Below are positions 875 to 11,101 of a stretch of 23,213 nucleotides of DNA, in pieces. Origin of the DNA: a virus. The notes under the pieces were generated by a model. The model was not told the origin of the DNA, did not search any database, and saw only the letters and a list, made by a program, of their open reading frames with translations. The first letter of the stretch is position 1; each line of letters opens with the position of its first letter. The stretch lies in the IMG/VR virus record IMGVR_UViG_3300044673_000232, positions 1-23,213 of that record; one strand, written 5' to 3'. Made by a program: the position numbers and the translations under genes.

Positions 875-1240
875 TCAAAGCGGGGATCGCAGGTAGAAAA
901 GATCGTATACCGCGACGGTAAAATCCTTGTCTTTGTTTTCAGGTAAAGAAAAGTAGTAATCAAAGTAGCTTATCATTATTTCAATTACCCCATCCTCCGA
1001 ATCACGAAGGCTTTTGCGCGACGCGAGAGCGGAAACATACCATTCAGGAACCGGCTGGTTTTTAGGAAGCCACACTTCGAGCTTTCCCCTGGCGTCTTCA
1101 CCTAAAAAAAAGCCGTAACAAAGGATATACCGTTCGTTCTCTGACAGGCTGTTCCAAAAATATCGCCCGACGATGGAATCCTCAGCAAAGGCCACCGCCC
1201 CCGCCAAGGCAAACAAGAGTACGAATAATGTCTTTTTCAT
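875..1240 (-). CDS. Small exported protein, possible lysogenic-conversion gene
   Basis: The 121-residue protein begins with a textbook signal peptide: MKKT, a hydrophobic core at about 5-15, and an AFA-E cleavage site near residue 19. A secreted or periplasmic product of about 100 residues is expected. There is no lipobox cysteine. The mature part has several Tyr/Phe/Trp residues and no motif I recognise. GAGGG lies 7 bases before the ATG on the minus strand, and a TATACT box (1259-1264) lies further upstream without a good -35 partner. The gene sits alone between the attachment site and the repressor region and reads toward the host. That is the usual place and orientation for cargo genes expressed from the prophage. 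Function unknown. Confidence 0.75.
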   Translation of the reverse strand: MKKTLFVLLFALAGAVAFAEDSIVGRYFWNSLSENERYILCYGFFLGEDARGKLEVWLPKNQPVPEWYVSALASRKSLRDSEDGVIEIMISYFDYYFSLPENKDKDFTVAVYDLFYLRSPL

Positions 1241-1365
1241 GGTTTACCCTCTAGCGCAAGTATAGCGCATTTTCCGGAACCGTGCTATTTTTCTATCCGC
1301 CTCCGCAAGTGCCGAGCCCATAGGGTAAAAACTTGCTCCAATCCTCATGGATGGAGCACGTCCCT

Positions 1366-4363: not shown

Positions 4364-4382
<19 letters not shown>
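4107..4382 (+). CDS. DUF6948-like phage protein
   Basis: This is a 91-residue protein. The pattern VVADRGFVYVG...VVENAHNIRRW...LGELALEGPK...VRIPARAVISIIDTEAA matches my recollection of the DUF6948 family: small beta-rich proteins of unknown role encoded by many phages and prophages. AAGGAGG lies 9 bases before the ATG. The last 19 bases overlap the start of the Gly-X repeat gene, an arrangement I believe recurs where this family is found. The family name is from memory, not from a search. Confidence 0.7.
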
Positions 4383-4672
<290 letters not shown>

Positions 4673-4984: not shown

Positions 4985-6019
4985 ATGAGTGATCTTGCCG
5001 TGGTCCAAGTACCAGCGGAAAGAACCGTAACGGAGATCGTCGCACATATCGCCAAAATCCAGGACGTGATGGAGAAAGTCCTTAAGGAAGGCGAGCACTA
5101 TGGGCCGAGCTTCCCGGGGGATAAGAAGAAAAACCTCCTGAAACCAGGCATCGATAAGCTGGCCTTTACTTTCCGGCTCGTCCCCGAGTACGACGTTCAG
5201 ACCATCGAAATGGCGAATGGGCATCGGGAATACCGGGTAACGACCCGATACAGGTCCCTATCTTCTGGCCTCATCGCCGGAGAAGGGCTGGGATCGTGCA
5301 GCACCATGGAAGGGAAATACCGTTGGAGAAACTCCGCCCGAAAATGCCCTATTTGCGGAAAAGAAGCGATCATCAAGGGCAAAGAGGAGTACGGCGGCGG
5401 CTGGGTATGCTTCAAAAAAAAGGATGGATGCGGCGCGAACTTCCAGGATGGTGACGTGACCATAGAAAAGCAGGAATCCGAGAAGGTCGAGAACGGCGAC
5501 ATCGCGGACACCTACAACACCGTCCTCAAGATCGCCAAGAAACGCTCGAGCGCAGACGCGATCATCACCGCTTTGGCCGTATCGGACATTTTCTCCCAGG
5601 ACGCCGACGACTTGGAACCCGGGGACGCACAGCATGGAGAGCAGGCCGGAGGAGCCGCCCCGAAGACAACGACAGCGCCCAAGAAATCCGCAGGGCCCGC
5701 GCAGAACCCCTTCGAGAAACGCATGACCGAAGCGAAGGCTAAAACCATCGAGATCGTGACGACATGCCTCCCGGACAAGACGCCTCTCTTCACGTCCGAA
5801 GAAAAAGAAATCGCCGCGAAAAAGCTCAAGAGTACCGAGCAAAAAGACGGGATCATCCTGTTCGACGAGAAAAACGCTTCCTACCTGGAATCGATCCAGC
5901 AAGAGTACGCCAAAAAACTTGCGGAACGGCTAGATCCGGAAGAAAAAGAAGAAGAGCAGCCGGAAGGTCAGGCTGGAGCAAAGACCTTTGACGAACCTAT
6001 CCCCGACGACATTTTCTAA
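4985..6019 (+). CDS. Phage recombination-associated protein with zinc ribbon
   Basis: This is a 344-residue protein. The segment GEHYGPSFPGDKKKNLLKPG (36-55), then KLAFTFRLVPEY, RYRSLSSG and, later, ADTYNTVLKIAKKRSSADAI with SDIFSQDADDL (about 174-210), is typical of a widespread phage family encoded next to RecB-like exonucleases and suspected to act in single-strand annealing. Between the halves there is a zinc-ribbon insert: C121-C124 and C142/C149. The C-terminal 130 residues are acidic and low-complexity, as in single-strand-binding partners. The ATG at 4985 follows AAGGGG by 6 bases; the longer frame from 4913 would start beside the hairpin without a good site. The exact biochemical role is inferred. 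Confidence 0.7.
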   Translation: MSDLAVVQVPAERTVTEIVAHIAKIQDVMEKVLKEGEHYGPSFPGDKKKNLLKPGIDKLAFTFRLVPEYDVQTIEMANGHREYRVTTRYRSLSSGLIAGEGLGSCSTMEGKYRWRNSARKCPICGKEAIIKGKEEYGGGWVCFKKKDGCGANFQDGDVTIEKQESEKVENGDIADTYNTVLKIAKKRSSADAIITALAVSDIFSQDADDLEPGDAQHGEQAGGAAPKTTTAPKKSAGPAQNPFEKRMTEAKAKTIEIVTTCLPDKTPLFTSEEKEIAAKKLKSTEQKDGIILFDEKNASYLESIQQEYAKKLAERLDPEEKEEEQPEGQAGAKTFDEPIPDDIF

Positions 6020-8871: not shown

Positions 8872-9023
8872 AACTATCACGCCTACTCGACGCGCTGATC
8901 CTAGCCATCGTCGGCACGGCGGCGCTGCTCCAGCTCGCTGGGCACGTCGTGACGTGCGTGGCGCGCAAGGTTGTCACACGGCTGTATAAGTCTGCTGGGT
9001 TAAGCTTACGCTGTCGCGCGTAA
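8868..9023 (+). CDS. Small membrane protein ending at an integron-like site
   Basis: A 51-residue frame starts at an ATG overlapping the upstream stop (ATGA), with AAAGGA 7 bases before. Residues 9-29 (ALILAIVGTAALLQLAGHVV) form one membrane helix, followed by a basic tail. The last codons and the TAA (9021-9023) lie within the 7-pair hairpin of the first integron-like site. The present C-terminus may have been created by recombination there. Function unknown. Confidence 0.6.
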   Translation: MKLSRLLDALILAIVGTAALLQLAGHVVTCVARKVVTRLYKSAGLSLRCRA

Positions 9024-9037
9024 GCGGGATGTTAGAT
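9004..9037 (+). other. Left integron-like half-site (L arms plus GTTAGAT)
   Basis: A 7-pair hairpin GCTTACG (9004-9010) / CGTAAGC (9019-9025) stands 5 bases before GTTAGAT (9031-9037), a perfect GTTRRRY core. No matching RYYYAAC box precedes the hairpin, so it is an incomplete attC or a secondary/attI-like target. It marks the left edge of the two-cassette insertion. Confidence 0.55.
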
Positions 9038-9047
9038 GGATTCTTAG

Positions 9048-9067
9048 CCGTAAAACAAGTTTTACGG
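9048..9067. repeat. Near-perfect palindrome in the cassette leader
   Basis: CCGTAAAAC-AA-GTTTTACGG has 9-base arms and a 2-base centre. It lies between the recombination point and the cassette gene. It could be an operator or a cruciform/hairpin; no T-run follows. Confidence 0.6.
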
Positions 9068-9113
9068 ACACGAACTAAATCGCGGCCTGAGCGTATCAGG
9101 CAAAGGAGTTTTT

Positions 9114-9356
9114 ATGCACTACCGAAATGGTCGGGAAGCACAGAACGGCGACAAGATCGTCAAATTGGAAGGCGGGAAAATCGTATCGTTCGGCGTTCTG
9201 CATAGCGCAGTTCCCGGCAACGATTATTGCAATGGAAACATTGCGGTAATTCAGGCACCGAACGACATGGCCTGCATGGTGGATTGTCTGCACGTTGACG
9301 ATCTTGTCGCAATCCTCGCCGAAAAAGGTCTGGATAAACGACCGGCTGGAAAGTAG
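9114..9356 (+). CDS. Cassette 1 protein, small conserved hypothetical
   Basis: This is an 80-residue soluble protein beginning MHYRNGREAQNGDKIVKLEG. This opening (MHYxNGREAxxGD) resembles a family of short beta-rich proteins seen in phages and mobile elements. The middle has the conserved-looking NDYCNGNIAVIQ and the end CLHVDDLVAILAEKGLDKRP. AAAGGAG precedes the ATG by 6 bases. It is the only gene of cassette 1 and ends 11 bases before its attC. Function unknown. Confidence 0.75.
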   Translation: MHYRNGREAQNGDKIVKLEGGKIVSFGVLHSAVPGNDYCNGNIAVIQAPNDMACMVDCLHVDDLVAILAEKGLDKRPAGK

Positions 9357-9367
9357 CAGGCCGCGAC

Positions 9368-9425
9368 ATCTAACAACGAGTTCGACCTGACAATCAGTAG
9401 ATTGCAGGTCAACTCAATGTTCGGC
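9368..9425 (+). other. attC-like recombination site 1 (58 bases)
   Basis: The order is as follows: left box R'' ATCTAAC (9368-9374, RYYYAAC); spacer AAC; left arm GAGTT-c-GACCTG (9378-9389) with an extrahelical C at 9383; an apical hairpin CAATC-AGTA-GATTG (9391-9404); right arm CAGGTCAACTC (9405-9415); spacer AAT; right box GTTCGGC (9419-9425). The box at the right departs from GTTRRRY at one position. The right box belongs to the next cassette, so it pairs only partly with the left one, as expected in an array. Length, layout and the unpaired base on the left arm are those of integron attC sites that recombine as folded single strands. Confidence 0.8.
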
Positions 9426-9698
9426 GGACGCCAAAGCGTCATAATAAGTTATGCCGACAGGCGCAAACATTCGGCAAAGGAGTTTAACAATGCAATGTTA
9501 CGAATGTCGGCATTACAAAAAAGACACTGAGTATAGCGGTCTTGGGTCTTGTTCGAGTGATGAAGTTTCCGGTCGGCTTGTATTCGGAAATGCCGACTAC
9601 TTTTGATAGCGGATGACTTCGGCTGTCGCTTTGCCGAAGGCACCGAACAAGCTAATCAACCTGACTCGGGCGAATAGCCCTCGCAGGTTATCAGCATG
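9420..9698 (+). mobile_element. Integron-type gene cassette 2
   Basis: The 279-base unit runs from the T after G9419 to G9698. It holds a 38-residue gene (9490-9606), a small hairpin CTTCGGC/GCCGAAG (9617-9639), and an attC. Its own right box ACCGAAC (9642-9648) complements its left end GTTCGGC at 6 of 7 positions. This is independent support for the cassette reading. Confidence 0.7.
9490..9606 (+). CDS. Cassette 2 protein, very small cysteine-rich
   Basis: The frame encodes 38 residues. It begins MQCYECRHYKKDTEYSGLGS and has C3, C6 and a later CSS motif. C-x2-C-x-HY...G-x-C is the outline of tiny zinc-binding proteins seen in phages. AAGGAG lies 7 bases before the ATG (9477-9482), so translation is well supported in spite of the length. 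It is the only gene of cassette 2. Confidence 0.6.
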   Translation: MQCYECRHYKKDTEYSGLGSCSSDEVSGRLVFGNADYF

Positions 9699-9704
9699 TT
9701 AGAC
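9642..9704 (+). other. attC-like recombination site 2 (63 bases)
   Basis: The layout is the same as the first site: left box ACCGAAC (9642-9648); spacer AA; left arm GCTAAT-c-AACCTG (9651-9663) with an extrahelical C at 9657; apical hairpin GGGC-GAATA-GCCC (9668-9680); right arm CAGGTTATCAGC (9684-9695); spacer AT; right box GTTAGAC (9698-9704), a perfect GTTRRRY. The stem sequences differ entirely from the first site while the structure is kept. That is the signature of attC sites as opposed to ordinary repeats. Confidence 0.8.
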
Positions 9705-10600: not shown

Positions 10601-11101
10601 GTGAAGTACATAAAAAAGCCGGTTGAGATTGAAGCGTTTGTTTTTGTGGGCGGAAGCGTGGAGCCTGGATGGCCTATCGGATGGCTTTCCGTCCCTCATG
10701 TTTTTTCTGACGATGGTGAGAGCGTTATCATCCCGACACTCGAAGGAGATCACCGAGCGGATAAAGGTGATTACATAATCAAGGGCATCAAGGGCGAGTT
10801 CTATCCATGCAAGCCGGACATTTTCGTATTGACATACGAACCCACCTGGCCCAGCGGCCAGGACGAGGCGCGGGAGTTTCTTTTTAGCCTTGCCTCACTA
10901 AACGTGCAGGATAGAGTAATAGCTATCGTAGCCCGCGATGCCGCCCAGCGCGCCCATGGCAGACGCGACGCGGCGGAGGCGTTTTGCAAAGCGTGCCCTG
11001 GCGAACCTACGCCCAAATGCAAGATTGGATGCAAGGCTCTTAACACTATCCTCGGCGAGGTGAAGGGATCCGGAGGACAGCCCCCGGAAAAAGGAATATA
11101 A
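10601..11101 (+). CDS. Phage protein with conserved MKYIKKPVEIEA domain
   Basis: This is a 166-residue protein. The first 78 residues (MKYIKKPVEIEAFVFVGGSV, then TLEGDHRADKGDYIIKGIKG, EFYPCKPDIFVLTYE) belong to a small beta-rich protein family very common in phages of many hosts and of unknown function. Here it is extended by about 85 residues. The extension has a helical part (GQDEAREFLFSLASLNVQDR) and a Cys cluster CKACPGEPTPKCKIGC. The extension looks like a fusion with another small phage protein. The start is GTG at 10601. It is the last gene before the packaging module. Confidence 0.7.
   Translation: MKYIKKPVEIEAFVFVGGSVEPGWPIGWLSVPHVFSDDGESVIIPTLEGDHRADKGDYIIKGIKGEFYPCKPDIFVLTYEPTWPSGQDEAREFLFSLASLNVQDRVIAIVARDAAQRAHGRRDAAEAFCKACPGEPTPKCKIGCKALNTILGEVKGSGGQPPEKGI

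Follow-up and report, generated by a model that had tools for sequence, protein, structure and literature searches.

Two genuine integron attC sites, bounding two gene cassettes, are confirmed in the 23,213-nucleotide stretch of prophage-bearing DNA analysed here (the window, an IMG/VR record). A phage-borne cluster of attC sites without an integrase (CALIN) is itself already known and the window is a further example; the new part is a pair of folded cassette ends, termed P3 and P1, which occur in the window virus and about 30 others and which were seen neither in the bacterial integron arrays examined nor in any publication searchable here. The best explanation, and in our judgement a probable one, is that these are phage-borne cassettes with P3/P1 on which a host integron integrase (IntI) acts in trans, with a junction stabilising the attC of the excised circle.

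attC sites and cassette boundaries

A scan of the whole 23-kb window for RYYYAAC/GTTRRRY boxes with complementary arms gave two sites (attC1 and attC2, with scores of 12.2 and 10.8; Table 1) and no others, while in ten dinucleotide shuffles no score exceeded about 9. A covariance model (R1), for which the training set consisted solely of 21 attCs from chromosomal spirochaete arrays adjoining intI, matched both significantly (45.7 bits, E = 4.7e-10, and 32.0 bits, E = 2.3e-6, respectively) and matched nowhere else in the window. The bottom strand of each site adopts the hairpin fold of an attC (z = -5.5 and -3.4), imperfect in both cases, with an extra-helical base and an unpaired spacer. The original prediction of two attC-bounded cassettes is thus confirmed by the boxes, the scan, the R1 matches and the bottom-strand folds. 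Over 68 bp, attC1 shares 88% identity with an attC of Tetrasphaera phage TJE1, and a near-identical copy of attC2 lies in another viral contig (L084, around 10950–11012).

The four box sequences and the extra unpaired C in each left arm (9383 in attC1, 9657 in attC2) were read directly in the window, as had been described; two of the boxes are fully consensus, and ACCGAAC and GTTCGGC are each one base off. The left end of each cassette complements its own R'' box, at 7/7 positions in cassette 1 and 6/7 in cassette 2; the 8/8 previously given for the former is seen when one flanking base is included. The left crossover of cassette 1 falls between 9031 and 9032. The span of 9004–9704 assigned to the feature holds for the attC cassettes but not for its start, which takes in a hairpin. 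That hairpin was rejected as a third attC, having no R'' box and no R1 match. A palindromic hairpin stands directly 5' of the first cassette both in the window and in TJE1 (49197–49217), and might represent either the initial target of insertion or a terminator.

Table 1. Features of the window (positions in the 23,213-nucleotide stretch)
Feature	Position	Strand	Remarks
Host glyS	1–603	reverse	84–88% identity to spirochaete genomes
8-bp hairpin	9004–9025	+	Directly 5' of first R' box; not attC
Upstream R' box G^TTAGAT	9031–9037	+	Left bound of cassette 1; 7/7 complement of R'' 9368–9374
P3 leader, cassette 1	9031–9079	+	R2 45.8 bits, E = 3e-9
Cassette 1 (388 bp)	9032–9419	+	Between crossover points of flanking R' boxes
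P1 5' arm, cassette 1, TCGCGGCCTG	9080–9089	+	10/10 complement of 9357–9366
Cassette 1 ORF (80 aa)	9114–9356	+	Widespread conserved phage protein
P1 3' arm, cassette 1, CAGGCCGCGA	9357–9366	+	One base 5' of R''
attC1	9368–9425	+	R1 match, TJE1 identity, fold z
R'' box ATCTAAC, attC1	9368–9374	+	Read directly
R' box GTTCGGC, attC1	9419–9425	+	Read directly
P3 leader, cassette 2	9419–9469	+	Degenerate; R2 30.6 bits, E = 9.4e-6
Cassette 2 (279 bp)	9420–9698	+	Between crossover points of flanking R' boxes
P1 5' arm, cassette 2, TTCGGCAAAG	9470–9479	+	10/10 complement of 9629–9638; adjoins ribosome-binding site
Cassette 2 ORF (38 aa)	9490–9606	+	From translation
P1 3' arm, cassette 2, CTTTGCCGAA	9629–9638	+	Complement of 9470–9479
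attC2	9642–9704	+	R1 match, near-identical attC in L084
R'' box ACCGAAC, attC2	9642–9648	+	Read directly
R' box GTTAGAC, attC2	9698–9704	+	Read directly

Prophage, host and integrase

The array lies in a prophage, in that phage structural genes are joined to host DNA; the phage genes of the window include terminase relatives, a portal-type gene (phrog_332) and a replication initiator. A 36.8-kb sister contig (L003/G001) matches the window at 99.99% from position 5889 onwards and again at 672–2449, which places the start of the phage at about 672, adjoining host glyS. This contig is the only close relative and has the same two cassettes; the replication protein has no matches besides it, and none of 63 terminase relatives has an attC in the available DNA. 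At the left end of the prophage, around 672–712, the C-terminus of a forward ORF resembles what translation of a tRNA 3' end typically gives, so that a tRNA gene may serve as the attachment site; in the window as a whole, ARAGORN detected no complete tRNA. The ORF at 4364–4672 of the prophage is glycine-rich and of low complexity, with GDGSGYGYGDG repeats.

The host glyS is 86–88% identical to that of the spirochaetes G115 and G246 and 84% identical to that of G221, with G297 also within 84–88%. Integron integrases scoring above the curated cut-off are present in G115, G246 and G221 and in the other close glyS matches G083, G071, G217 and G178. No intI above the cut-off was found in the 37 viral records, the sister contig (a weak tyrosine-recombinase match of 20 bits only) among them; the window, G001 and some other records are partial, and this absence refers to the available records rather than to the whole phage or host. 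With at least two attCs and no intI, the array classes as a CALIN, in a record that may be incomplete, and the intI and attI of a complete integron were not found in it. Together with the R1 matches, the folds and the TJE1 identity, this supports the integrase-less attC cluster in a prophage that had been proposed.

Exchange of cassettes with chromosomal integrons, also part of the original prediction, is likely given the glyS host and the attC arms of its relative G246, whose chromosomal array has the arms AACAACTGCTTCAACCTGA...CAGGTTAAGCAAATGTT that are common in phage arrays, but the cassettes of the window were themselves found in no chromosomal array. Two spirochaete genomes hold intI together with a phage-type array: in G038 the array contig is also listed as a virus and carries a terminase, and in G045 the array lies beside ssb and terminase-like genes (named from reading of translations rather than from a family search) and reads as a prophage.

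The attC pattern, defined without any leader sequence, was searched in IMG/VR and in 84,980 species genomes, and matched 37 contigs of the former and 21 of the latter. R1 gave 72 matches in 30 of the viral loci, in a few cases hitting both strands of a single site. Terminase_6N alone is present in 11 of 33 viral records, and many of these are therefore clearly phages. As to the supposed rarity of such an arrangement, phage attC clusters have been known since 2023 and this attC type occurs in 37 viral contigs. The array adjoins a single-strand-binding protein gene in three phages: L002 (TJE1), L083 and L303 (the G045 prophage).

Folded cassette ends

The folded 5' ends of the cassettes had been missed in the original prediction. 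In most viral cassettes a hairpin, P3, starts at the attC R' box and lies 5' of the ribosome-binding site, with the layout GTTRRRY-N-GA(C/T)-stem A-stem B-loop-stem B'-GACA-stem A'. When 30 leaders were aligned with the window left out, 12 of 12 base pairs show compensatory changes and 85% of the alignment cells pair, compared with 59% after shuffling (0 of 500 shuffles as high); pairing falls to 37% or less when the partners are slid by one column. The leader covariance model (R2), also built without the window, matches both window cassettes directly at R' (Table 1).

The second element, P1, is defined by bases after P3 that are complementary, with a score of at least 7, to bases within 4 nt of R''. 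It is found in 23 of 55 cassettes (42%) versus 1.7% of cross-paired ends, with a nearly two-peaked distribution of scores; over half of the cassettes lack it. In the window, each cassette has a P1 of 10 bp without mismatch. When the cassettes were circularized in silico, 21 of 55 gave a minimum free-energy fold of the bottom strand in which P1, attC and P3 meet in a three-way junction; this junction is predicted for the circle of window cassette 1, and window cassette 2 has P1, yet its predicted fold forms no junction. In the freely accessible literature covered, no integron paper was found among the matches listed for the term three-way junction, and none that combines integron, attC and viral contigs.

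Among the contigs picked by the same attC pattern, 30 of the 37 viral ones (including the window's sister contig) have the P3 leader, versus three of the 21 genome ones (p = 9e-7); of these three, one is a contig that is listed as viral too and the others are shorter than 4 kb. Chromosomal integrons and further attC-bearing genome loci, about 620 kb in all, gave no leader above 23 bits; the best R2 score there, 23 bits, belongs to a mini-hairpin. Among 296 spirochaete genomes the leader is present in one, within a prophage, and there was no match among the best candidates per genome in Desulfobacterota, in the class of G041 or in the phylum of G049. P1, too, shows no excess in 59 spirochaete chromosomal cassettes, which rules against its being a general integron feature. 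These distributions weigh against a simpler account, possible but doubtful, according to which the window holds a plain CALIN of ordinary cassettes from a host integron, the folded ends being a trait of the donor lineage with no phage-specific role. That account would accommodate the match of the attC arms to host-type integrons, and also the mini-hairpins that follow R' in chromosomal cassettes (bottom-strand z = -1.8, control 0.1). Such short hairpins directly after R' were noted in the chromosomal spirochaete cassettes L271, L277, L280, L286 and L293–L297 (e.g. GGACGCCCGCACTGGGGCGC), and no description of them was found in the literature searched.

A further alternative, which we regard as unlikely, is that the leader is an mRNA element acting in translation start or antitermination and letting phage genes behind attC hairpins be expressed. 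Its location directly 5' of the ribosome-binding site, which P1 often touches or contains, would suit this role. However, mismatches in stem B are A.C, a wobble on the bottom strand only, rather than G.T, a wobble on the top strand, in a ratio of 15:1, or 13 versus 1 with identical helices counted once (one-sided p = 0.0009), a small count from stem B to which mutational asymmetry may have contributed; stem A (2 versus 4) is uninformative. By DNA folding energies, 27 of the 34 leaders that differ are more stable on the bottom strand and seven on the top strand (p = 1.6e-4). The excess of A.C together with the greater bottom-strand stability therefore indicates that P3 is conserved as bottom-strand DNA, as attC is, and this signature argues against an mRNA element, as does the lack of any meaningful Rfam match in the whole window and four array loci. 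The attC hairpins are strong stem-loops, but that these inverted repeats are terminators rather than recombination sites is very improbable and strongly disfavoured given the matches to an independent attC model, the R''/R' circularity rule, the extra-helical C and homology to the experimentally active TJE1 sites (PMC9892861).

Proposed mechanism

We favour phage-borne cassettes mobilized by a host enzyme. With no integron integrase in the prophage, chromosomal host IntI would act in trans on the phage attCs and could thereby excise, insert and reshuffle phage cassettes. The cassettes belong to a class that occurs mainly in phages, with P3 at the R' box of the 5' end and P1 in about 40%. As the R' box of each attC in the array is followed by the leader of the next cassette, a cassette's own attC and leader would be joined only in the circle. 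In the excised circle attC, P3 and P1 would be contiguous, allowing a three-way junction of the bottom strand in which attC forms one arm, and the extra arms may hold the bottom-strand attC in its recombinogenic fold, so that re-insertion is favoured over loss. Support comes from attC identity, phage context, distribution, the absence of intI in the available records, P3 covariation, the strand signature and the P1 excess; IntI action in trans, the three-way junction in vivo and the effect on recombination rates are what we infer.

More tentatively, these elements might constitute a phage lineage of integron cassettes in its own right, with a site larger than the classical attC, namely a bottom-strand junction of attC, P3 and P1 formed in full only in the circle; host IntI would thereby be biased towards insertion of phage cassettes, and phages could trade small counter-defence and early genes. 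The attC is a textbook recombination site that is read as folded single-stranded DNA. If the proposal is correct, a strand-specific second structure that is almost exclusive to phages and contiguous only in the circular intermediate would offer a direct handle on how integration is favoured over excision. The arrays also show that phages shuffle genes of the early and counter-defence types (Lar-like, DNA methyltransferases, HNH, DUF551) in cassette form, presumably by an enzyme that is not their own. The P3/P1 variant of the phage CALIN deserves a bench test.

Comparison with known systems

Qi et al. (2023; PMC9892861) report 17 CALINs in phages and recombination with attI1 for five of six phage attCs tested, including both TJE1 sites, which were recombined by IntI1. 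The TJE1 CALIN resembles that of the window in being an integrase-less attC array with small phage-type ORFs, a folded leader and P1; TJE1 is described there as virulent on an actinobacterium, whereas the window phage sits as a prophage next to the glyS of a spirochaete. No mention of the folded leader or of P1 was found in the accessible text of that paper. The chromosomal integrons of Treponema and other spirochaetes (PMC3607928) share with the window the attC architecture, a mini-hairpin after R' and, in G246, the same arm sequences, but differ in having intI, a short leader hairpin and no P1 excess. The complete integrons borne by prophages of Vibrio anguillarum and Shewanella M16-3 likewise place cassettes inside a prophage and, unlike the window, have intI and host-type cassettes (PMC9892861).

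Cassette cargo

For the cassette 1 protein, 372 relatives from viral contigs were confirmed; the best of them are 78–88% identical to it and the 34 that were aligned 79–88%, and 38 of 80 positions are invariant among the 35 sequences. It has no match in Pfam, PHROG or NCBIfam and none in 50,697 named phages; its predicted structure (pLDDT 65) was too weak for a structure search, and its profile gave no convincing solved structure. With 372 viral relatives, and an attC nearby at only one of 79 loci examined (L200), the gene is thus one common among uncultured phages that has become a cassette. At that locus, in another phage, the possible attC (1230–1315, minus strand, 28.4 bits) lies beside the homologue of the cassette 1 gene. 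The product of the cassette 2 ORF has no family match. Cargo of the viral cassettes includes DUF551, Lar, HNH, Dam and D12 methyltransferases and RtcB. Reshuffling is supported by a cassette protein that is 98% identical in L093 and L109, where the neighbouring cassettes differ.
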